A stretch of DNA of 64,000 nucleotides. Source: Flammeovirga pectinis. GTDB taxonomy: Bacteria > Bacteroidota > Bacteroidia > Cytophagales > Flammeovirgaceae. Positions 1 to 64,000 of the stretch are shown here, in pieces. The translations under genes were made by a program, and so were the position numbers. The number at the start of each line of letters is the position of its first letter. Position 1 is the first letter of the stretch. A model generated the notes under the pieces. That model ran no database searches. It saw nothing but the letters and a program-made list of their open reading frames with translations, and had not been told where the DNA came from. The DNA is taken from the NCBI RefSeq assembly GCF_003970675.1, contig NZ_CP034562.1, positions 2,232,001 to 2,296,000 of the forward strand, written 5' to 3'.

Positions 1-430
1 TCATAAGGTGAACAATCTTTGTAAAAGCAATTTCTTTTGCTTCTTGTTCTACTTGTTCTAATGCACTTTGAACCATTAAATCAAGGTTTTTCCCAAAGTG
101 TTTAAAACGAATATGAGTTTGATTATACTCCACCTTACGAGGTTTTTTAAACATCATATTTTCAGTAGGTGAAGGATAAGGAGAATCAATTTCTAATTCA
201 AAATCCGACATTACTTGAAGGTGATCCCAAATTCTTTGCTGACTATCATCTAGTTGCTTTTGAATTGGATGTAATTGCTTCATCAATGCTATTAAAGTAT
301 AAGCATATTGAGTTCGTAAAGCCTTATCATCTAAAGATGAAATAAACTTTACAAGTTGTTCAATATTTCTACCATACTCTTTTAGAATGATATCTGTTCT
401 TCCTGTATTGTACGTATATTCGTCGCGCAT
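1..430 (-). CDS. DUF4290 domain protein (3' end outside window)
   Basis: The reverse strand reads from an ATG at 430 to the window edge without a stop, giving about 143 residues that begin MRDEYTYNTGR. The segment EYGRNIEQLVKF and the stretch IWDHLQVMSDFELEIDSPYP are hallmarks of DUF4290, a Bacteroidota-specific family of unknown function. The protein is mostly helical and charged, with no signal peptide. It lies 61 bp downstream of glmS on the same strand, with a hairpin between them. Function is unknown. The family call rests on recognising the conserved motifs; the C-terminus is not visible. Confidence 0.82.
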   Translation of the reverse strand, partial: MRDEYTYNTGRTDIILKEYGRNIEQLVKFISSLDDKALRTQYAYTLIALMKQLHPIQKQLDDSQQRIWDHLQVMSDFELEIDSPYPSPTENMMFKKPRKVEYNQTHIRFKHFGKNLDLMVQSALEQVEQEAKEIAFTKIVHLM

Positions 431-447
431 ATTAAAAATCAAAACAC

Positions 448-480
448 AGTAGTTATTAATTGTAGAAATTAATAACTACT
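448..480 (-). terminator. AT-rich perfect hairpin after glmS
   Basis: Two perfectly complementary 14-nt arms (448-461 and 467-480) flank a 5-nt loop. Read on the minus strand, a T-rich stretch follows about 8 nt later. It sits 12 nt beyond the glmS stop codon, so it is probably a weak intrinsic terminator or a 3'-end stabilising hairpin. The stem contains few G/C pairs. Confidence 0.5.
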
Positions 481-491
481 GATATATATTA

Positions 492-2330
492 TTATTCTAC
501 TGTAACTGATTTAGCCAAGTTCCTTGGTTGATCTACATTACAACCTCTCATCACAGCAATGTGGTAAGAAAGTAATTGTAACGGCACACAAGAAATCATA
601 GGCATTAATACTTCATGAGTATCAGGAACTTCAATTACATGGTCAACCATGTTTGGAATTAAAGCATCTCCTTCTGTTACGATAGCTATAACTCGTCCAC
701 TACGAGCCTTTACTTCTTGAAGGTTAGAAACCACTTTATCATAAGAACTGTCTCTAGTTGCAATTACAACTACAGGCATTTCTTCATCAATTAAAGCAAT
801 AGGACCATGTTTCATTTCTGCAGCTGGGTAACCTTCTGCATGAATATATGATATCTCTTTTAGTTTCAGTGCACCTTCTAGTGCAACAGGGAAATTAAAT
901 CCTCTACCTAAATATAAGAAGTTTTTAGCATCTTTATACAATGCTGACATTTCTTTTATTTTAGCATCTGTCTTTAAAACAGCTTCAATCTTAGCCGGGA
1001 TATTTTCAAATTCAACTAAAAGGTCATGTAACTGAGCTTCTGTTAAAGATCCTTTTTCTTTTGCTAACATTAATGCCATTGTTGTCAAAACAGTCAACTG
1101 AGCAGTAAATGCTTTTGTACTTGCAACACCAATCTCTGGTCCAGCATGCGTATAAGCTCCCTCATGAGAGTTTCTTGCAATCGAAGACCCAACTACATTA
1201 CAAACACCAATAACAGTTGCTCCTTTAGATTCTGCTAAAGACATAGCTGCTAATGTATCTGCTGTTTCACCAGATTGAGAAATTGCAATCATAACATCGC
1301 CTTTTCCAATAATTGGATTTCTATATCTAAATTCAGAAGCGTACTCCACCTCTACAGGTATACGTACTAATTCTTCGATGATATATTCTGCAACTAAGCC
1401 AGCGTGCCATGAAGTACCACAAGCAACAATGATAATACGGTTAGCATTTAATAAATCCTCAAAATGATTATAAATACCACCAAGTTTAACATGGTTGTCT
1501 TTTGCAATTACTCGTCCTCGAAGACAGTCTGCAACAGATTTTGGTTGTTCCATGATCTCCTTCATCATGAAGTGATCATAACCACCTTTCTCAATTGCTT
1601 CTAATTCTAATTCTAATGTTTGAAGATATGGAGTTTGTACTTCATTCTTAACATCAGTAATTATCATCTCACCATCTTTTAAAAGAACTACCTCCTCATC
1701 TTTGATATACACAACATCTTTTGTGTATTCAATAATTGGAGTAGCATCAGATGCTAAGAAAAATTCGTTCTCCCCAACGCCAATAACTAGTGGACTACCT
1801 TTACGGGCAGCAACTAATTGACCTGGGTTATCCTTACTAGTGATAACAATAGCATACGCACCAATTACTTCATTTAATGCTAAACGTACTGCTTCATCTA
1901 AAGGACAATTATTATCTTTCTGAACTTGTTCAATAAAGTGAATAAATACTTCCGTATCCGTATCACTATGAAAAACATGTCCTCTTTCAATTAATGTTTC
2001 TTTTAAAGCTCCATAATTTTCAATAATTCCATTATGAACCATTGCTAATTTTGAATCAGAAGAGTAATGAGGATGTGCATTTGCATCGTTTGGAGCACCA
2101 TGAGTGGCCCAGCGAGTATGCCCTATTCCAGTAGATCCTTTAGTGTCTTGACCTTTTAATTGCTTTTTTAAATCAGCAACTTTGCCTTTACACTTAAAGA
2201 CCTTAACGTCTCTTTCTTCTACTAATGATACACCGGCACTATCGTAACCGCGATATTCTAAGCGCTCTAAGCCTTTGATAAGAATGTCAAGTGCTTGTCT
2301 ATGGCCTACATAACCGACAATTCCGCACAT
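492..2330 (-). CDS. glmS: Glutamine-fructose-6-phosphate aminotransferase (isomerizing)
   Basis: Makes glucosamine-6-phosphate from fructose-6-phosphate and glutamine, the entry step of UDP-GlcNAc synthesis for peptidoglycan and lipopolysaccharide; cytosolic. The 612-residue length is normal. The N-terminus MCGIVGYVG supplies the catalytic Cys2 of the class II glutamine amidotransferase domain, with GHTRWATHG near residue 75. Two SIS sugar-isomerase domains follow (CGTSWHAG and SQSGETADT in the first; GRGFNFPVALEGALKLKE in the second). The C-terminus DQPRNLAKSVTVE is the family signature. It follows the DUF4270 gene by 29 bp on the same strand. A TACATTTG promoter-like octamer lies at 2367-2374, but no well-spaced -33 element was found. 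Confidence 0.98.
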   Translation of the reverse strand: MCGIVGYVGHRQALDILIKGLERLEYRGYDSAGVSLVEERDVKVFKCKGKVADLKKQLKGQDTKGSTGIGHTRWATHGAPNDANAHPHYSSDSKLAMVHNGIIENYGALKETLIERGHVFHSDTDTEVFIHFIEQVQKDNNCPLDEAVRLALNEVIGAYAIVITSKDNPGQLVAARKGSPLVIGVGENEFFLASDATPIIEYTKDVVYIKDEEVVLLKDGEMIITDVKNEVQTPYLQTLELELEAIEKGGYDHFMMKEIMEQPKSVADCLRGRVIAKDNHVKLGGIYNHFEDLLNANRIIIVACGTSWHAGLVAEYIIEELVRIPVEVEYASEFRYRNPIIGKGDVMIAISQSGETADTLAAMSLAESKGATVIGVCNVVGSSIARNSHEGAYTHAGPEIGVASTKAFTAQLTVLTTMALMLAKEKGSLTEAQLHDLLVEFENIPAKIEAVLKTDAKIKEMSALYKDAKNFLYLGRGFNFPVALEGALKLKEISYIHAEGYPAAEMKHGPIALIDEEMPVVVIATRDSSYDKVVSNLQEVKARSGRVIAIVTEGDALIPNMVDHVIEVPDTHEVLMPMISCVPLQLLSYHIAVMRGCNVDQPRNLAKSVTVE

Positions 2331-55220: not shown

Positions 55221-56615
55221 TTACATATTCAATGCTCTATCATCTGTAGCTGCCAAGCATGCTTCTTTGATAGCTTCAGAATACGTTGGATGTGCGTGAG
55301 ACATTCTAGATATATCTTCAGCAGAAGCTCTAAATTCCATCGCTACAACTCCTTCAGATATCATATCAGCAGCACGTGGCCCAATAATATGCATACCTAA
55401 AATCTCATCTGTTTCTTTATCTGCAAGTACTTTTACTAAGCCATCAATATCCATAGATGCTCTTGCTCTTCCAGATGCTCTAAATGGGAAAGAACCCGCT
55501 TTATATGCTCTCTTAGATTCTTTAAGTTCTTGTTCAGTATAACCAACAGATGCAACTTCTGGCCATGTATAAACAACACCAGGAATCAATTTATAATTGA
55601 TATGTGGTTTTTGTCCATTCATGTGTTCTGCTACATAAACACCTTCTTCTTCTGCCTTATGTGCTAACATTGCTCCTTTAACAACATCACCAATTGCGTA
55701 AACGCCTTCTACAGAAGTTTCTAAATGATCATTTACATCTATACGTCCTCTTTCATCCATTTTACCACCAATAGCTTCAAAATTAAGCTTATCAGTATAT
55801 GGACGACGACCAATTGAAACTAAACAGTAATCCCCTTTAATTTCAATTTCTTTTCCTTTTTTATCCGTTGCTTTTACAACAACTTCTTCGCCTTCAACTT
55901 TAACAGATTCTACTTTAGTTTTTAAGTTAAACTTAAAACCTTCTTTCTTAAGTACTTTCTGCATTTCTTTTCCTAAAGAAACATCCATTGTAGGAATTAA
56001 AGCATCTGCGTATTCTACTACTGTAACTTCAGCGCCTAAACGAGCATATACAGAACCTAATTCTAACCCAATTACACCGCCACCAATTACGATAAGATGT
56101 TTAGGAATTTCTTTAAGTTCTAAAGCTTCAGTAGAAGTAATAACTCTTTTCTTATCAAACTCTATAAAAGGCAACATTACTGGCTTAGAACCTGTAGCAA
56201 TTATTACTTTTTTAGAATTAATAATTTTTGATTCTTTTCCTTCAATTTTGATTGTATTTTTATCTACAAAAGAACCAAAACCTTCAAGAACGTCAATTTT
56301 ATTTTTTTTCATTAAAAAGGCAATACCATCTGTAGTCTGCTTAACTACCTCGCCTTTTCTACCAATCATTTTACCAAAATCAATCTTAGGAGTTTCTACC
56401 TCTAAACCATGATCTGCAAAACGGTGTATTGCTTGATGGTATAATTCCGAAGAATCAAGTAATGCTTTTGAAGGAATACATCCAACATTTAAACATGTAC
56501 CACCTAGTGTTGAATATTTTTCGATTAAGGCTACTTTCATTCCAAGTTGAGAAGCACGAATTGCTGCTATATATCCACCAGGACCTGAACCAATTACTGT
56601 TAAATCGTAAGTCAT
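55221..56615 (-). CDS. lpd: Dihydrolipoyl dehydrogenase (E3)
   Basis: Reoxidises the dihydrolipoyl groups of 2-oxoacid dehydrogenases with NAD+; cytosolic flavoprotein. The 464-residue protein has FAD-binding VIGSGPGGYIAAIRASQLG and the redox-active disulfide in GGTCLNVGCIPSK (Cys41, Cys46). NAD-binding VIGGGVIGLELGSVYARLG, YAIGDVVKGAMLAHKAEEEG and the catalytic His in HAHPTYSEAIKEA complete it. It is third after sucA and sucB on the same strand, but a hairpin in the 106-bp gap may make it partly independent. It can serve pyruvate dehydrogenase and glycine cleavage too. Confidence 0.98.
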   Translation of the reverse strand: MTYDLTVIGSGPGGYIAAIRASQLGMKVALIEKYSTLGGTCLNVGCIPSKALLDSSELYHQAIHRFADHGLEVETPKIDFGKMIGRKGEVVKQTTDGIAFLMKKNKIDVLEGFGSFVDKNTIKIEGKESKIINSKKVIIATGSKPVMLPFIEFDKKRVITSTEALELKEIPKHLIVIGGGVIGLELGSVYARLGAEVTVVEYADALIPTMDVSLGKEMQKVLKKEGFKFNLKTKVESVKVEGEEVVVKATDKKGKEIEIKGDYCLVSIGRRPYTDKLNFEAIGGKMDERGRIDVNDHLETSVEGVYAIGDVVKGAMLAHKAEEEGVYVAEHMNGQKPHINYKLIPGVVYTWPEVASVGYTEQELKESKRAYKAGSFPFRASGRARASMDIDGLVKVLADKETDEILGMHIIGPRAADMISEGVVAMEFRASAEDISRMSHAHPTYSEAIKEACLAATDDRALNM

Positions 56616-56643
56616 AATTATCCTTAAAAAGGGTTTTTTATGG

Positions 56644-56682
56644 AAAAAGGAATGTTGAAAATTTAACCCTCCAACATCCCTT
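56644..56682 (-). terminator. Hairpin between sucB and lpd
   Basis: On the minus strand AGGGATGTTG pairs with CAACATTCCT (one G-U) around a 14-nt loop, followed by TTTT. It is a likely partial terminator after sucB. Confidence 0.6.
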
Positions 56683-56721
56683 TAATTTGTTTGTTTATAT
56701 AAAGAGATTAATTTTAAACGA

Positions 56722-58260
56722 TTAAACGTCTAATAATAATCTGATTGGATCTTCAAGAAGTTCTTTCACTCGTTTCAAGAAACTTACTGATTCACGACCA
56801 TCAATAATACGGTGATCATAAGAAAGAGCAACATACATGATTGGACGAATATGAACCTCACCATTAATAGCTACTGGACGTTCTACGATATTATGCATAC
56901 CTAAGATAGCCGATTGTGGAGCATTAATAATTGGTGTTGACAACATCGATCCAAATACACCACCATTTGTAATAGTAAATGTACCTCCTTCCATTTCTGG
57001 AATAGTCAGTTTGTTATCACGAGCTTTAAGTGCTAATCTTCTCACTTCTTTCTCGATTGCTGCTAAGCTTAAAGATTCAGCATTTCTGATTACAGGAACA
57101 ACTAACCCTTTAGGTGCAGACACAGCAATAGAAATATCAGCATAATCATTATATACTAATTGATTTCCATCAATAAATGCATTTACTGCAGGCCACTCTT
57201 GTAATGCTACAGTTACTGCTTTTGTAAAGAATGACATGAAACCTAATCCAATTTCATGCTTGTCTTTAAACATTTCTTTGTATTTCTTACGAAGGTCCAT
57301 TACTGGCTTCATATCTACCTCGTTAAAGGTAGTTAACATAGCTGTTTCATTCTTCACAGAAACTAAACGACGAGCAACAGTCTTACGTAAAGCCGTCATT
57401 TTCTCTCTTCGTTGAGCTCTTTCACCTGCAACAGGAGCCGGAGCAGAAGGAGCTGCCGTTTCTTTCTTAGCTTTTGATGGTGCAGGAGCTGCTACTTTTT
57501 GTGCTTTTTCTGCATCTTCTTTTGTAATACGCCCATCAACGCCAGTACCTTTTACAGTAGCAACATCAATACCTTTTTCTGCTAATATTTTAGCTGCCGC
57601 TGGAGACGCATGTCCAGTTGCATAAGTTTTGTCTGATGAAGTTGAGGCTGCACTTGTTGCTTCTACTGCAGGAGTAGCAGCAGCTTGAGGCGCACCACCT
57701 TCCATTACTTCAATTTTACAAATTGGAGCACCGATTTCTAAAGTCTCATCTTCTTGAGCAATGATTCTTAAGATACCAGACTCTTCAGCTGTCAATTCAA
57801 ATGTAGCTTTATCAGATTCAATTTCGCAAAGTAGATCATCTAACTCAACAAAATCTCCATCTTCTTTTGCCCAAGATGCAATTGTTACCTCAGTGATAGA
57901 TTCACCTACTGTAGGAACAACCATTTCAAGAACTTGACCAGTTGCTTTTGGACTTTCTGAGGGAGCAGATACCGTTGGTTCTGCTACTGTAGAAGAAGCT
58001 GCTTTCTTAGGAGCTCCCTCACCTTCTTCAATTGTACAAAGCAATGCACCAATTTCTAATACTGCATCTTCTTGTGCTTCTGGAGATATTTTTAATATCC
58101 CGTCACTTTCAGCAACTAACTCGAAAGTAGCTTTGTCAGATTCAAGTTCACAAAGCACATCATCTAATTCAACTGCTTCTCCATCTTCCTTTAACCATCT
58201 TGCGACAGTTACTTCAGTGATAGATTCACCGACAGCTGGAACATTCATTTGTAAGCTCAT
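56722..58260 (-). CDS. sucB: 2-oxoglutarate dehydrogenase E2 (dihydrolipoyl succinyltransferase) with two lipoyl domains
   Basis: The 512-residue core of the 2-oxoglutarate dehydrogenase complex. There are two N-terminal lipoyl domains, each with an ESDKATFEL lipoylation site (Lys43 and Lys151), where most bacterial E2o enzymes have one. They are joined by Ala/Pro/Ser-rich linkers to a peripheral-subunit-binding domain ([23 protein letters not shown]) and a C-terminal acyltransferase with [15 protein letters not shown] containing the catalytic His and Asp. The neighbour sucA supports the 2-oxoglutarate assignment. It lies 37 bp after the GNAT gene. Confidence 0.96.
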
Positions 58261-58297
58261 AGTTTTATATTTTTTGCGATAGTTAATCGCTAGAGTT

Positions 58298-58732
58298 CTA
58301 GACTAATTTCTTTTTGAATTTATAATGAGGGATACCTACTTCTTCAAATAAATCACCTACTTTTTCGTAGTTTAATTTATTATAGAATTTCTCCGCTACT
58401 TCTCTTGCATGTAATGTCATTGTTTCAAATCCATTATCAAATGCAAAAATTTCGCTAAACTGAACCATCAAAGAGCCCAAACCTTTACCTCTCTGATCAT
58501 CCCTCACGGCAACTTGTCTCATTTTAATTTCCTGAGGAGAAATTGGTTTTAATACTAGGCAAGCAACAACCTCATCAGAATCATTCATAGCTACTAAATG
58601 ATAGCTATCAAACTCTTCTGACAATTCTTCTTCTGAAAATTCTAAGCCAAGGGGTTTACGTAAAACATCGCTACGTAAATTAACCGCCAATTTGTGCTCA
58701 GGTGAATTAAAGGTTACTTCTTTGATAATCAT
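58298..58732 (-). CDS. GNAT-family N-acetyltransferase
   Basis: The 144-residue single-domain acetyltransferase has [27 protein letters not shown], which contains the acetyl-CoA pyrophosphate loop R/Q-x-x-G-x-G. [41 protein letters not shown] matches ElaA/YitH-like small GNATs. It sits between sucA (13 bp) and sucB (37 bp) on the same strand, so it is co-transcribed with the 2-oxoglutarate dehydrogenase genes. Its substrate is unknown; acetylation of the complex is a tempting but untested idea. Confidence 0.9.
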
Positions 58733-58745
58733 AACAGTTCTTTTA

Positions 58746-61541
58746 TTATAAGTCCTCTTTATCGAACGCTACAGAAACGATTCTTTCCAATTCAGTTTTA
58801 TGAACCTTAGGGAAACCTGTTGCTGGAGATGCACTTGGTTTACGAGAAACCAACTTCATCTTAATCAACTCTTCTTCGTTTCTAAACGATCTCATGATAA
58901 ACGTCCAATATCCCATGTTAACAGGTTCTTCTTGTACCCATTTCAATGATTTACGGTTCGAATATCTTTTCAAAATTTTATTTACTTTCTTCTCAGGGAA
59001 AGGATGGATTTGTTCTACACGAATGATAGCAACATCATCTCTATTTTCCTTTTCCTTACGTTCTAAAAGATCATAATAGATTTTACCAGTACACATAAGT
59101 ACTTTTTCTACTTTCTTAGGATCTTTTACAAGTACATCATCATATACTTCTTCAAATTTACCTTTAGTGAAATCTGCTTCTGGAGATATACACTTAGGGT
59201 GACGAAGCATAGATTTTGGTGTCATTACAATTAATGGCTTTCTAAAATCCCAAGTTAACTGTCTTCTAATTGCATGGAAGAAGTTAGCTGGAGTTGTAAA
59301 ATTACCCACTACAATATTGTGCTGAGCTGCCAATTGTAAATATCTTTCAGGACGAGCGTTTGAATGCTCAGGTCCTTGACCTTCATAACCGTGTGGAAGT
59401 AACATTACTAACCCGTTACTTCTACCCCATTTACTTTCCCCAGATGTGATAAACTGGTCAATTGTTGTCTGTGCACCATTAGAGAAATCTCCAAATTGAG
59501 CTTCCCATATCGTTAAAGCACTAGGGTTTGCCATAGCATAGCCATATTCAAAACCTAAAACGCCATATTCAGACAATAATGAATTGTAAATGTAAAATGG
59601 TCCTTGAAGTTTACTAATATGTTGTAAACTGTTGTATTTCTCGTTTGTCTCTGCATCATTTAAGACTGCATGTCTATGAGAGAAAGTACCACGTTGAACA
59701 TCTTGTCCTGACAATCGAACAATATTACCATCCAATAACACCGAACCGTAAGCTAATAGTTCTGCTGCAGCCCAATTAAATATCTTCTTATCGAAGAACA
59801 TTTCTTTACGCTCAGTAATTAACTTATCAATTTGCTTAAGAGGTTTAAAACCCTCTGGTACAGTTGTTAAAGCATGCCCTACTGCCTCAATTGTTGTTTT
59901 AGAGATTGAAGAATCTGGAGATTCATCAAAATCTGCTTCCTTACCACGTTTTAATTGTTTCCATTGGATTTCCAATTCTTGTGGTCTATAAGGAAGTGGG
60001 TGTTGTCTAATCTCATTTAAACGATCTTGCAATAAGCGACGGAATTCTTTATCCATTTGCTTAGCAAGTTGAGCATCAAATTCACCTTTTTCTACTAATT
60101 TCTTGAAGAAAATTTCGCGAGGGTTCTGATGTTTCGCAATGATATTATATAACTTTGGCTGAGTGAATTTTGGCTCATCTGCTTCGTTGTGTCCGTGACG
60201 ACGGTAACATACCATATCAACAAAGATATCTCTGTTATAACGTTGTCTAAACTCAACTGCCAATTTCATAGCATAAGCTACTTCTTCTGGGTGATCTCCG
60301 TTTACGTGTAATACTGGCGACTCAATTAACTGAGAAACGTCGGTACAATAAATCGAAGAACGAGCATCATCAAAGTCAGTTGTAAATCCAACTTGGTTAT
60401 TAATTACGAAGTGGATAGTACCACCTACACCGTAACCTTCCAAGTTCGACATTTGTACTGTTTCATAAACAATACCTTGACCAGCAATTGCTGCATCACC
60501 ATGTATTAAGATTGGTAGAATACGTTTTGGATCATTGTCGTAAATTGAATCTACCTTTGCTCTTACAACACCTAAAACTACAGGATCAACTGCTTCTAAG
60601 TGAGAAGGGTTTGGAGATAAATCAAGACGTACTTTCTTACCGTTGTGTGTTTCTATTTGAGATGAGAATCCTAAGTGATATTTTACATCACCATCTCCCA
60701 TTGTTTCATCGGGAACTGCCTGTCCTTCAAATTCATTGAAAACTTCTTCATAAGTTTTACCCATCACGTTCGTCAATACATTTAGACGACCACGGTGTGC
60801 CATACCTATAACTACTTCTTCAACTCCTAATTCAGCACCTGTGAAAATTGCAGTATCTAATGCTACGATAGATGATTCACCACCTTCTAAAGAGAATCTC
60901 TTCTGACCTACAAATTTTGTATGCAAGAAGTTTTCAAATACTACAGCTTCATTCAGTTTACCTAGTATTCTCTTTTTGTCTTCAGGAGAAAAATCATGAG
61001 CAGGGTACTCATTTTCGATTTTATCTTGAATCCATGATAATACTTCAGGTTCACGGATTGACATAAATTCAAAACCGATGTGACCGAAATAAATTTGTTT
61101 TAATCTAGCTAGAATATCTTTTAGCGTTGCAGATCCCATTCCTAAATAAGAACCTGCTGAGAAAGTTGTTGATAGATCTGCGGTAGATAAACCGAAATCT
61201 TCTAATTCTAAACGAGCATGTCTGTCTTTACGTTTACGAACAGGGTTCGTATCAGATAATAAGTGAGCTCTTGATCTAAACGCGTTGATCAATTGTCTTA
61301 CTGCAACTTCTTTTTGTAACATTTCTTCCGAAATACCACCAGTTACAGGCTTGCTTGTTCCGTTTGAGTTTGTTTTAGCATCTAACTCAGGGTTTTCTCC
61401 GAATTTTTCTAATGAAAATTCAAACCCCTCAAAAAATCGTTTCCATGATTCGTCAATTGAATCTGGATCTTGCTTGAATGCCTCGTACATTTGTTCAATG
61501 TAGTCGCCATGAGCGTTTGCGATGTAGGAATATTTGTCCAT
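58746..61541 (-). CDS. sucA: 2-oxoglutarate dehydrogenase E1 component
   Basis: The thiamine-diphosphate enzyme that decarboxylates 2-oxoglutarate in the TCA cycle. About 931 residues from the ATG at 61541 (MDKYSYIANAHGDYIEQMYEAF); an in-frame ATG nine codons upstream is less likely, as the family starts here. GMAHRGRLNVLTNVMGK, LSPNPSHLEAVDPVVLG, HGDAAIAGQGIVYETVQMSNLEGYGVGGTIHFVINNQVGFTT (ThDP/Mg site) and LLPHGYEGQGPEHSNARPERYLQL are diagnostic. It is first in the sucA-GNAT-sucB-lpd set. A -7 box lies at 61583-61590 and an 18-bp palindrome just upstream of it. Confidence 0.98.
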   Translation of the reverse strand: MDKYSYIANAHGDYIEQMYEAFKQDPDSIDESWKRFFEGFEFSLEKFGENPELDAKTNSNGTSKPVTGGISEEMLQKEVAVRQLINAFRSRAHLLSDTNPVRKRKDRHARLELEDFGLSTADLSTTFSAGSYLGMGSATLKDILARLKQIYFGHIGFEFMSIREPEVLSWIQDKIENEYPAHDFSPEDKKRILGKLNEAVVFENFLHTKFVGQKRFSLEGGESSIVALDTAIFTGAELGVEEVVIGMAHRGRLNVLTNVMGKTYEEVFNEFEGQAVPDETMGDGDVKYHLGFSSQIETHNGKKVRLDLSPNPSHLEAVDPVVLGVVRAKVDSIYDNDPKRILPILIHGDAAIAGQGIVYETVQMSNLEGYGVGGTIHFVINNQVGFTTDFDDARSSIYCTDVSQLIESPVLHVNGDHPEEVAYAMKLAVEFRQRYNRDIFVDMVCYRRHGHNEADEPKFTQPKLYNIIAKHQNPREIFFKKLVEKGEFDAQLAKQMDKEFRRLLQDRLNEIRQHPLPYRPQELEIQWKQLKRGKEADFDESPDSSISKTTIEAVGHALTTVPEGFKPLKQIDKLITERKEMFFDKKIFNWAAAELLAYGSVLLDGNIVRLSGQDVQRGTFSHRHAVLNDAETNEKYNSLQHISKLQGPFYIYNSLLSEYGVLGFEYGYAMANPSALTIWEAQFGDFSNGAQTTIDQFITSGESKWGRSNGLVMLLPHGYEGQGPEHSNARPERYLQLAAQHNIVVGNFTTPANFFHAIRRQLTWDFRKPLIVMTPKSMLRHPKCISPEADFTKGKFEEVYDDVLVKDPKKVEKVLMCTGKIYYDLLERKEKENRDDVAIIRVEQIHPFPEKKVNKILKRYSNRKSLKWVQEEPVNMGYWTFIMRSFRNEEELIKMKLVSRKPSASPATGFPKVHKTELERIVSVAFDKEDL

Positions 61542-61876
61542 GTGTTTGTTGAGGTTATATACTTGCACCTAGACAAACTTAACAAAAGTATTTAATATAT
61601 TATATTTGTATACACAAATAAGCAAATACATGAATTATATTTCACTTTTAAGCAACTAGTATAAATGAAATAGCTAATGATTTGAAATTTAATCAAAAAC
61701 AGCCTTGAAACATTAACAAACGCTTAAAAATAGAGATGGAAAGGTTATTTATAGTAAGTAATCTTTACAAGGTGTAGTATTAAATTCTTCAATTTTAATT
61801 TTTTATTTCTATAACTTTTATATATTTATAATGATTAAAAATATATACACCTTAAAAATTCGCTTTTAAATACTGC
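61542..61876. promoter_or_regulatory. Divergent intergenic region: sucA promoter elements and palindrome
   Basis: No gene is seen here. On the minus strand TACTTTTG (61583-61590) is a full -7 match for sucA, about 42 nt before its start. Just upstream, TATTTGT-ATAC-ACAAATA (61603-61620) is a perfect inverted repeat with 7-nt arms that covers the -33 area, and so could be an operator. The remaining about 250 bp toward the channel gene is very AT-rich. No clear plus-strand promoter was found in it. Confidence 0.5.
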
Positions 61877-62980
61877 ATGAAACTATACTTATTGCTACTA
61901 TTCATTTTTTCTCCAATTATATTATTCTCTCAAAATTCTGGTACTGAAAGAAGAACAATTCTAGAAAACCACATTTTAAGAGTTGGTGTGAGAGAGGACC
62001 CTCCCTTTGTTATTAAAGGGATAGATGGAACTTTTTATGGGTTAAGTATAGATTTATGGCACATGGTTGCTGAAGATTTACATTTAGTATATGAGTTTGT
62101 TGAATACGAACATATGCCTGGTTTAATTTTAGGTTTATCTAGAAGACAAATTGATATTTCAGCTAATCCAATGCCTGTAAGTAGTACAAGGATAAGACAA
62201 CTTGATGTCACCTACCCTTTCATGACTACCTCCTTAGGTGTTGTTGTTCTTAAAGACAAACAAGATCAATTGACTATCTTCTTTTCTAACCTATTTTCGG
62301 TTGGTTTCATGAAACTTCTTTTCACTTTAGTTATTATTGTTTGCCTTTTTGGTACTCTAGTATGGTGGGTTGAAAAAAAGTATAATGCGAAAGATTTTAG
62401 GGATGGAATTGAAGGGATAATGGATGGTATATGGTGGTCAACAGTTACAATTACAACGGTTGGTTACGGTGACAAAACACCCAAAACAACGATAGGAAGA
62501 GTTATTTCTATGGTTTGGATGTTTGTAGCCATTAGTTTAATATCTAGCTTTACAGCAACTATTACTTCTACTTTGACATTAAATCAATTAGAAGCTAAAA
62601 TAAAATCTGTTAGCGAATTAAGAAAAATGAAGGGTAACATAGGCGTTACTGCACATTCTGGCGCTGAAAGCTACCTATTAAAACATCAAATAAATCCATC
62701 AACTTTTTCTAACCCTAATGAAGGGCTTTTAGCTTTAGAGAGTGGGAAAATTGTAGCTTTTGTTCATGATAAACCCATAATGCGTTATCTTATTAAAGAA
62801 CGAAATGGAGAAGATTTATTTGAAATATCACAAGCTAATTTCAAACAGAATTATTATTCCTTTTTTATGCCTAGAAATAGTAAACTATATAAGAAAATCA
62901 ACTCAGAAATAGTTGATAACATTGATAAAGATTCTTGGCATAGACTTCTTAAAAAATACAATATGGATGAGATCAATTAA
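61877..62980 (+). CDS. Prokaryotic ionotropic glutamate receptor-like K+ channel (GluR0 type)
   Basis: A 367-residue ligand-gated channel in one chain: signal peptide (1-19), first half of a periplasmic solute-binding domain (about 33-128), TM1 (about 144-165), pore loop with the K+ filter TTVGYGD (193-199), TM2 (about 207-228) running into SSFTATITSTLTLNQLE (the SYTANLAAF-like gate region of animal receptors), then the second ligand-binding half (about 245-350). Arg105 in STRIRQLDVTYPF aligns with the ligand alpha-carboxylate Arg of glutamate receptors, and Asp298 in VAFVHDKPIMRYL with the residue that holds the amino group. An amino-acid agonist is therefore likely. Its last 14 nt overlap yraN. 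Confidence 0.9.
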   Translation: MKLYLLLLFIFSPIILFSQNSGTERRTILENHILRVGVREDPPFVIKGIDGTFYGLSIDLWHMVAEDLHLVYEFVEYEHMPGLILGLSRRQIDISANPMPVSSTRIRQLDVTYPFMTTSLGVVVLKDKQDQLTIFFSNLFSVGFMKLLFTLVIIVCLFGTLVWWVEKKYNAKDFRDGIEGIMDGIWWSTVTITTVGYGDKTPKTTIGRVISMVWMFVAISLISSFTATITSTLTLNQLEAKIKSVSELRKMKGNIGVTAHSGAESYLLKHQINPSTFSNPNEGLLALESGKIVAFVHDKPIMRYLIKERNGEDLFEISQANFKQNYYSFFMPRNSKLYKKINSEIVDNIDKDSWHRLLKKYNMDEIN

Positions 62981-63338
62981 CACAACTGCTCAAAAACGAT
63001 TCGGAACAAATGGAGAAAATATTGCATCAAAATACTTGATTGATAAAGGTTACACCCTTTTAAAAAGAAATTACAAGTACAGCTATAACGAGATTGATAT
63101 TATTTGTAAAAAAGATCGATTTCTAGTTTTTGTTGAAGTAAAAACTAGATCTTCAAATGACTTTGGATTCCCTGAAAATCACGTTTCTAAAAAACAGATC
63201 AATAATATAACAAATGCGGCTATTCATTACATGGAAACTAATAATAACTCAAATTATTTAGTTAGATATGACATCATTAGTATTACCTATACATCAAATA
63301 CAATTGATATAAAACATATTGAAGATGCTTTTTATTAA
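62967..63338 (+). CDS. yraN: YraN-family (UPF0102) endonuclease-like protein
   Basis: About 123 residues from the ATG at 62967 (MRSINTTAQKRFGTNGENIASKYL), which overlaps the channel stop by 14 nt; an in-frame start at 62913 would extend far into the channel gene. GENIASKYLIDKGYTLLKRNYKYSYNEIDIICKKDRFLVFVEVKTR shows the Holliday-junction-resolvase-like fold, with the E...EID...EVK catalytic pattern intact. The precise function is unknown, with a DNA-processing role presumed. Overlap suggests translational coupling to the channel gene, which is probably only a convenience of gene packing. Confidence 0.93.
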   Translation: MRSINTTAQKRFGTNGENIASKYLIDKGYTLLKRNYKYSYNEIDIICKKDRFLVFVEVKTRSSNDFGFPENHVSKKQINNITNAAIHYMETNNNSNYLVRYDIISITYTSNTIDIKHIEDAFY

Positions 63339-63368
63339 TTGTATAAATCACAACGTAAATTTATTCTT

Positions 63369-63809
63369 ATGCTCAAAAAAACCACTTATTTCTGCGTATT
63401 TGTTTTCCTATTTCTTTTATCAAACTACGGGTTATGTCAAGAAAGGAAAGTTAAAATTATTACCGTTGTTGAAACTACCAAAAACAGCACAGGCAGGTCT
63501 AAAATGATTGAAGTAACCTCCATACGAAATTCAGAAGATTTTACCACTACAAGGACAGAAGGTAAAGACACAAAGCAAAAAGACATTAATAGAAGTGATG
63601 CAAAAGTGGATAACTTACAGGAAACAAAGTTATTAAATATAGTTAATGCAGGAGGAGTACAATATAGAAATGTAGCTTCTAACGATGCAATTGTTGCTTC
63701 TAGAGTAGCTGAGTTACTAACTGAAGGATGGGAATTAAAATCTGTTGTTTCTAGTATGGAGAATAAATCTACTTCTTTTCAGATGACACGATATATATTT
63801 ATTCAGTAA
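63369..63809 (+). CDS. Small secreted protein of unknown function
   Basis: About 146 residues from the ATG at 63369 (MLKKTTYFCVFVFLFLLSNYGLCQ), preferred over an in-frame TTG at 63339 because it gives a clean signal peptide with cleavage near GLCQ. The mature part is hydrophilic, with a Thr/Lys-rich region. It ends in a conserved-looking C-terminal module (NAGGVQYRNVASNDAIVASRVAELLTEGWELKSVVSSMEN...SFQMTRYIF), resembling the small DUF4177-like fold in which a Gly-Trp-Glu-Leu turn is typical. That resemblance is inference. It is 30 bp after yraN and followed by a terminator. Confidence 0.65.
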   Translation: MLKKTTYFCVFVFLFLLSNYGLCQERKVKIITVVETTKNSTGRSKMIEVTSIRNSEDFTTTRTEGKDTKQKDINRSDAKVDNLQETKLLNIVNAGGVQYRNVASNDAIVASRVAELLTEGWELKSVVSSMENKSTSFQMTRYIFIQ

Positions 63810-63811
63810 CA

Positions 63812-63852
63812 AAAAAGAGTCCTTTCAACTTAATGGAAGGACTCTCTTTTTA
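63812..63852. terminator. Terminator between the secreted protein and acs
   Basis: Stem AGAGTCCTTTC/GAAGGACTCT with an 8-nt loop plus A and T runs on either side, between convergent stop codons. Confidence 0.85.
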
Positions 63853-63863
63853 TTTAAAATTAT

Positions 63864-64000
63864 TTATGCATTGATAGCATTATCTTTTACAGCACCTTCT
63901 TTTATTGCTTCCACAATAGAAGGGTCTAATAAAGTAGAAATATCTCCGAAATTATCCGTTTGACCTTCTCCTATTTTCCTTAAAATTCTTCTCATAATTT
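63864..64000 (-). CDS. acs: Acetyl-CoA synthetase, C-terminal fragment (5' end outside window)
   Basis: The last 45 or so codons read [32 protein letters not shown] and stop at 63864. This is the conserved C-terminus of acetyl-CoA synthetase (usually [13 protein letters not shown]...LGDTSTLADPSVV), which activates acetate to acetyl-CoA. The codon at the window edge ends in AA, consistent with the conserved, acetylation-regulated Lys that precedes IMRR. The rest of the gene lies outside the window. Confidence 0.9.

Follow-up and report, generated by a model that had tools for sequence, protein, structure and literature searches.

A predicted GluR0-type ligand-gated potassium channel of Flammeovirga with an unusual residue in its binding pocket

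GluR0-type channels are simple cousins of the animal glutamate receptors, in which the domain that binds the ligand and the pore that conducts the ion are found in a single chain. The locus described here raises the question of whether an open reading frame of Flammeovirga pectinis encodes a channel of this type and, if so, which class of solute its binding pocket could hold. The window, i.e., the whole stretch of 64,000 nucleotides that was analyzed, contains at 61877-62980 on the forward strand an intact reading frame that runs from the ATG at 61877 to a stop codon ending at 62980 and encodes 367 amino acids with zero internal stops, as the original prediction of a complete gene had claimed. 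This gene very probably encodes a GluR0-type ligand-gated K+ channel of Flammeovirga (Group 1 in Ger et al. 2010). The sequence, the domain order, the fold match, the conservation and the phylogenetic place support this reading directly, and the tetrameric assembly, the topology, the K+ selectivity, the gating by a ligand and the physiological role are predicted by analogy with GluR0 and the animal receptors.

Parts of the channel protein and their conservation

Three Pfam models match the protein above their curated cut-offs, namely SBP_bac_3 (residues 34-362, E 3.1e-18), Lig_chan (residues 152-260, E 1e-15) and Ion_trans_2 (residues 152-234, E 4.3e-15), and the SBP_bac_3 match, which covers profile positions 1-130, is divided by the pore. 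Lig_chan-Glu_bd reaches 29.9 bits, marginally below its cut-off of 30, and no NCBIfam model matches at its cut-off, many binding-protein models matching weakly and those of the GlnH type below cut-off. Hydropathy places membrane segments at residues 134-167 and 204-231 and shows that the N-terminus is hydrophobic. Taken with the Pfam order and the structure models, it describes a binding domain split into the halves S1 and S2 around two transmembrane helices and a pore loop. S1 is preceded by a signal peptide and a short linker and nothing else, and the chain ends with S2, thus carrying neither the M4 helix nor the N-terminal domain of eukaryotic-type ionotropic glutamate receptors (iGluRs). 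The parts are as follows:

61877..62980, forward strand: predicted GluR0-like ligand-gated K+ channel gene, 367 aa (intact ORF, Pfam, orthologs in the genus)
61877..61930, forward strand: putative N-terminal signal peptide, approximately residues 1-18 (hydropathy; end set by eye)
61973..62257, forward strand: first binding-domain half, S1, spanning residues 33-127 (PDB sequence matches; model pLDDT)
62174..62176, forward strand: Pro100, an unusual residue for this position, which corresponds to GluA2 T480 (51-row alignment)
62189..62191, forward strand: Arg105, the alpha-carboxylate arginine, at the position of GluA2 R485 (aligned to the GluA2 arginine; 51/51 rows)
62300..62374, forward strand: TM1 (M1), residues 142-166 (hydropathy and model helix)
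62408..62473, forward strand: pore helix and K+ filter, residues 178-199, with the filter TTVGYGD at 193-199 (Ion_trans_2)
62489..62590, forward strand: TM2 (M3 of animal receptors), helix 205-238 (model helix)
62543-62581, forward strand: gate motif SSFTATITSTLTL, residues 223-235, in TM2
62594..62962, forward strand: second binding-domain half, S2, spanning residues 240-362 (remainder of the SBP_bac_3 match)
62768-62770, forward strand: Asp298, in S2 (D in 47/51 rows)

The filter TTVGYGD, the motif SSFTATITSTLTL and the residues R105, D110 and D298 all lie where the original prediction had placed them. A G[YF]GD filter is present in 44 of the 51 aligned rows, and the gate region (residues 224-235) is identical to plant GLR3.4 at 7/12 positions and to GluA2 at 5/12. 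This 51-row table leaves out 13 of the 64 aligned rows, either as repeats (L015-L018, L020, L040, L049, L058, L066 and L067) or as incomplete channels (L003, L050 and L051).

The same arrangement, S1-TM1-P-TM2-S2 without an amino-terminal domain, M4 or a C-terminal domain, is described for the K+-selective, glutamate-gated GluR0 of Synechocystis (Slr1257), which likewise possesses a TxVGYG filter (PMC6385376, PMC12332018) and an alpha-carboxylate arginine. The binding-domain and pore fold, the gate motif of TM2 and the carboxylate arginine are also shared with plant GLRs and animal AMPA receptors. Unlike these receptors, the channel has neither an N-terminal domain nor M4, and it carries a K+ filter, which is absent from GLR3.4 and GluA2 in the alignment. 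A K+ filter joined to a glutamate-receptor binding domain is also known from the rotifer AvGluR1, a eukaryotic K+-selective iGluR, which is set apart by its description as having the eukaryotic receptor architecture (PMC12332018).

Orthologs of the channel are found in all nine Flammeovirga genomes (its own included) and in 4/9 others of the family, with one match each at E 1e-20; in the channel's own genome, the other four matches are partial. Eight relatives come from named genomes: five from Flammeovirga at 83-86% identity, a Flavobacteriaceae record at 44% and two from Verrucomicrobiota at 32-33%. Some of the five Flammeovirga proteins have identical counterparts among the genus genomes compared here, which places the window in Flammeovirga. 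In seven of eight pairs dN/dS amounts to 0.009-0.062, with dS high or near saturation, and dS is undefined in the eighth. The channel gene is under strong purifying selection.

Binding pocket, ligand and gating

The arginine at position 105 is invariant (51/51 rows), and the position of Asp298 is occupied by D in 47/51 rows, by E in two, by N in one and by P in one. The position equivalent to GluA2 T480 behaves differently in the genus, a feature absent from the original prediction. Pro is found there in 10/51 rows, which are all nine Flammeovirga and L023, from another genus of the same family; T or S occupies it in 39 rows, A in one and N in one. Outside Flammeovirga, T/S is present in 33 of the 35 rows with a K+ filter and N in one, and GluR0 has Ser in the S1 alignment, unlike the channel. 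Parsimony on the full-length tree requires two changes for this proline. Since it is shared by all nine Flammeovirga rows, glutamate is not assured as the ligand: proline offers neither a backbone NH nor the hydroxyl that a Thr or Ser side chain normally provides there, groups that matter for ligand contact.

By alignment, the pocket further comprises P98 (GluA2 numbering 478), P100 (480), R105 (485), S261 (653), G262 (654) and A263 (655), and D298 (705), Y327 (732) and Y78 (450) were assigned by eye from neighboring rows. In GluA2, the ligand backbone is described as contacted by residues 450, 478, 480, 485, 654 and 705, and the ligand side chain by 653, 655, 704, 708 and 732 (PMC12226733). 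The same source associates Ser653 and a hydrophobic residue at 655 with glycine or D-serine when 732 is Phe; the channel has Tyr at 732, a combination for which the published scheme makes no clear prediction. The carboxylate arginine and the amino-group acid named in the original prediction are indeed present, yet they are insufficient to settle the ligand. The pocket departs from the standard glutamate pocket at Pro100 and Ala263, so that an amino-acid ligand is something that we infer. The spacing between R105 and D110 is also present but does not mark out a receptor, because the binding proteins AncQR and GlnPQ share it. GluR0 S1 aligns with an insertion in this region, unlike the channel, which lacks an insertion after the arginine.

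On the analogy with GluR0 and the animal receptors, four chains would assemble around a K+-selective pore of the inner membrane. The pore would be inverted relative to KcsA, its loop reaching into the membrane from the cytoplasmic side, and the S1 and S2 halves of every chain would lie in the periplasm. There, a small solute, most probably an amino acid or a closely related compound, would be held by Arg105 and Asp298. Its binding would close the clamshell and pull on the TM2-S2 linker, opening the gate at SSFTATITSTLTL, and the resulting K+ flow would change the membrane potential or the turgor. For GluR0 itself, PhoA fusions are described as fitting the inverted topology, partly without statistical significance; moreover, GluR0 restores the growth of the K+-uptake-deficient E. 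coli strain LB2003, and a need for the soluble domains and a role after KCl upshock are described (PMC13099474). The gate motif carries limited weight, because a chimera of GluA1 and a viral K+ channel is reported to be glutamate-gated without SYTANLAAF (PMC6385376). The motif may thus be less important than assumed.

The same channel could also be gated by a non-classical ligand, e.g., a dicarboxylate or another small anion held by Arg105, because a backbone-contact residue is a proline, a possibility that we regard as real but rather unlikely. Pro takes the place of T/S in L023 as well as in the nine Flammeovirga rows, at a position that touches the ligand backbone in iGluRs (PMC12226733), and the 655 position is Ala. 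However, Arg105, Asp298, Pro98 and Tyr327 are all retained, Pro100 may be tolerated via water or small local shifts, and a receptor lacking the backbone-contact acid is reported to bind, e.g., glycine nonetheless (PMC12226733). Moreover, Ala263 is not special, because Ala occupies the 655 position in 9/35 K+-filter rows outside Flammeovirga as well. That the GluR0-type channels of Flammeovirga have shifted from the classical alpha-amino-acid ligands, with Pro at 480 and Gly and Ala at 654 and 655 shaping a pocket for a different solute, is a doubtful proposal at present. If true, Flammeovirga would gate a K+ pore by a chemical signal that is not known for the GluR0-type receptor family. The oddity of the pocket deserves a ligand test.

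A leak channel or constitutively open K+ channel whose periplasmic domain would no longer gate on a ligand is improbable. The pocket is altered by Pro100, and a placozoan receptor without the D705 acid is reported to have constitutive leak currents that are blocked by ligands (PMC12226733), but the Flammeovirga protein retains the equivalent acid (D298) and a conserved gate motif, and strong purifying selection acts on it as a whole. 

Fold and phylogenetic place

Returning to the GluR0-type reading, the S1 half alone finds Slr1257/GluR0 (1iit, E 4.6e-8) as its first match among solved structures, in a near tie with the Nostoc homologue 2pyy (E 5.3e-8), both among the best three sequences. With the whole channel as a single sequence, the top PDB match is plant GLR3.4 (5.7e-17). 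A family profile yields pore-spanning matches to GLR3.4 (1.6e-30) and GluA2 (7.1e-30), its top scores falling ahead of these receptors on the tandem ABC binding protein GlnPQ (1.5e-41), 2pyy (7.7e-36) and AncQR (1.4e-32).

Two AlphaFold models were built from different 11-row alignments. The first has a mean pLDDT of 69.6, and its best 50 PDB matches in Foldseek are ionotropic glutamate receptors throughout (best E 1.1e-15). The second has a mean pLDDT of 79.2 and a pTM of 0.59, its binding-domain blocks lying mostly at 83-93 (residues 31-120 at 85-93) and its weak spots at the filter block 191-200 (pLDDT 59) and the TM2 end 231-240 (pLDDT 46). Such receptors again fill its best 50 matches, with open-state GluA3 at the top (E 2.1e-20), the AMPA LBD-TMD chains among them align over approximately 370 columns, and across these 50 the TM score (query) is a moderate 0.49-0.67. 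The models align with AMPA and kainate LBD-TMD chains through both binding-domain halves and the pore, in agreement with the clam-shell binding domain that the original prediction presupposes. The relative placement of the domains in these models is uncertain. Among predicted viral proteins, the best match of the channel model is BFVD E3T502 of Cafeteria roenbergensis virus (E 1.7e-20, TM 0.69 by query), which matches over the full length and is annotated as a putative ABC-type amino acid transporter; E3T502 may be a receptor-like channel.

In a full-length tree of 49 rows, from which L007 and L009 were left out as near-identical, the channel falls inside a 14-row Bacteroidota clade with support 100/99. 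The binding-domain and pore trees left out L007, L008, L009, L013, L033, L039 and L044, and the rows of all three trees do not include the Synechocystis GluR0 sequence. In the binding-domain tree (50 rows), the channels, including Nostoc 2pyy, are separated with 99/97 from five binding domains, of which three come from the PDB and two are others of this genome, and forcing the channel into the binding-protein group is rejected (p-AU 7.1e-5). Thus, the grouping with plain binding proteins that would have spoken against a receptor is not obtained. In the pore-only tree, the four plain K+ channels of the genome join beside the Flammeovirga rows (90/82) on very long branches, a placement flagged as possibly false, and this tree does not enter into our conclusion.

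A plain amino-acid ABC binding protein or a permease fusion resembling a channel, which the SBP_bac_3 and sub-cut-off GlnH-type matches, the top profile match in the PDB and the annotation of 17/22 plasmid relatives as transporter substrate-binding proteins would favor, is rejected by the binding-domain tree and hardly credible, given the K+ filter, pore helix and two transmembrane helices within the binding domain, the Lig_chan match above cut-off and the lack of any ABC permease in the ORF list for 56000-64000.

The GluR0-type channel can also be compared with Group 1 of Ger et al. 2010, which is described as 12 bacterial channels with a K+ filter, most but not all with a signal peptide (PMC2950845). 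As in that description, S1 and S2 flank two transmembrane helices, a K+-channel filter is present, and an Arg lies in S1 and an Asp in S2; moreover, the channel has a signal peptide like most of the group, judged by hydropathy alone. The Thr/Ser of the T480 position, absent in the channel, is not named as defining Group 1 in the same source. Unlike Group 1 as described, and Group 1 is known here from its description, the channel belongs to a separate 14-row Bacteroidota clade. Terms such as Bacteroidetes, Flavobacter-, Cytophaga- and Chlorobi- are absent from the main text of that article (PMC2950845), and in the open-licence PMC literature no report of an iGluR in Bacteroidota was found, nor, by title, of a Flammeovirga gene of this kind. 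The architecture of a GluR0-like ligand-gated K+ channel claimed in the original prediction is thus supported by domains, fold, filter, gate position and phylogeny, and the channel is a good further member of a known bacterial type, with one unusual pocket residue. Alone, it leaves the picture of receptor origins unchanged. The conserved single-copy set of Flammeovirga, together with relatives whose pocket and filter vary naturally, offers a useful test set for changes in ligand choice and ion selectivity.

Several relatives depart from the usual filter. L061 (approximately 376-1422, reverse strand), from a genome of the same class that is 96% complete and 5% contaminated, has S1, two transmembrane helices and S2 without a recognizable GYG filter; it falls within the 14-row clade, whose other members have a K+ filter, its exact place being weak (72/9). 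As a second case of filter change, L052 (2881-4002) on plasmid pRt932 of Rhizobium tumorigenes has the altered filter TQASTGHRG and groups with K+-filter channels at 86/79 in the full-length tree and at 99/92 in the binding-domain tree. In a separate group of the same class (L062, L063, L064 and L065), T[T/A]G[Y/F]GD replaces TVGYGD and the gate motif contains [ST]M[VI]AG.

Gene neighborhood and distribution

Two neighboring features accompany the channel gene:

61821..61828, forward strand: candidate promoter -7 element TATATTTA (pattern TAnnTTTR, 56 nt before the ATG)
62967..63338, forward strand: yraN (UPF0102, nuclease-like; Pfam UPF0102 6e-26)

The likely start of yraN overlaps the 3' end of the channel gene by 14 nt, and the two genes adjoin in all eight other Flammeovirga genomes and in L022. 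Perhaps yraN is cotranscribed with the channel, though not part of it. Upstream, TATATTTA possibly serves as the -7 element of the channel promoter, judging from its match to TAnnTTTR, a pattern of the Bacteroidota consensus, and it sits in a part of the upstream alignment that is well conserved by eye; a second TAnnTTTR match is located at 61601. Generic scans returned 10 promoter-like sites against 12.1 in shuffles and 0 terminator-like sites against 0.8, and no RNA element was found in 58000-64000 at Rfam gathering scores. A functional link with the divergent upstream gene sucA (2-oxoglutarate dehydrogenase) was dropped, since sucA was found in the upstream flank retrieved for only 4/8 other genomes of the genus (L014, L019, L020 and L021); with 4-kb flanks, those of L007 and L010 contain it and those of L006, L008 and L009 do not. 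Likewise, carriage as phage cargo was rejected, because none of the nine matching records, among 50,697 phage records, covers 80% of the channel and, in addition, yraN stays next to the channel throughout the genus.

At the curated cut-off, Lig_chan is found in 28/296 sampled genomes of the phylum, its own included, in none of 14 control genomes and in 12/145 genomes of a phylum sample centered on Verrucomicrobiota. At 1e-5, it is found in 33 genomes of the phylum, those of the same class being its own and only two more, and 20 of the 33 matches were taken up as loci for comparison. In the same class, a Flammeovirga-centered profile at E 1e-30 detects the type in at least 8/295 genomes, its own included, a lower bound because at most six candidates were scored per genome. 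GluR0-type channels are thus known in bacteria and not rare in the wider phylum; therefore, the original emphasis on a Bacteroidota genome, correct as to the host, adds little. Some of the accessions given by Ger et al. 2010 presumably belong to green sulfur bacteria.

Full-length relatives also occur on plasmids of other phyla: of 52 matching plasmid records, 22 span at least 80% of the channel, 17 of them bearing the annotation "transporter substrate-binding domain-containing protein" and five having none. PHROGs match the channel in pore or binding-domain pieces only. Four records of viral-contig collections (L046, L047, L048 and L049; 40-264 kb), whose contigs are putatively viral, carry GluR0-like proteins with TVGYGD.

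Finally, SBP_bac_3 at E 0.001 has four matches in the channel's own genome, all in longer or composite proteins (L068, L069, L071 and the channel) and none a stand-alone binding protein. They are a symporter fusion, an MltF-like lytic enzyme (by eye), the channel and a sensor-kinase-like protein (by eye). In the fusion, L068 (1429-3621, reverse strand), a single frame of 730 aa encodes a sodium:dicarboxylate symporter (SDF) with an SBP_bac_3 domain at its C-terminus.
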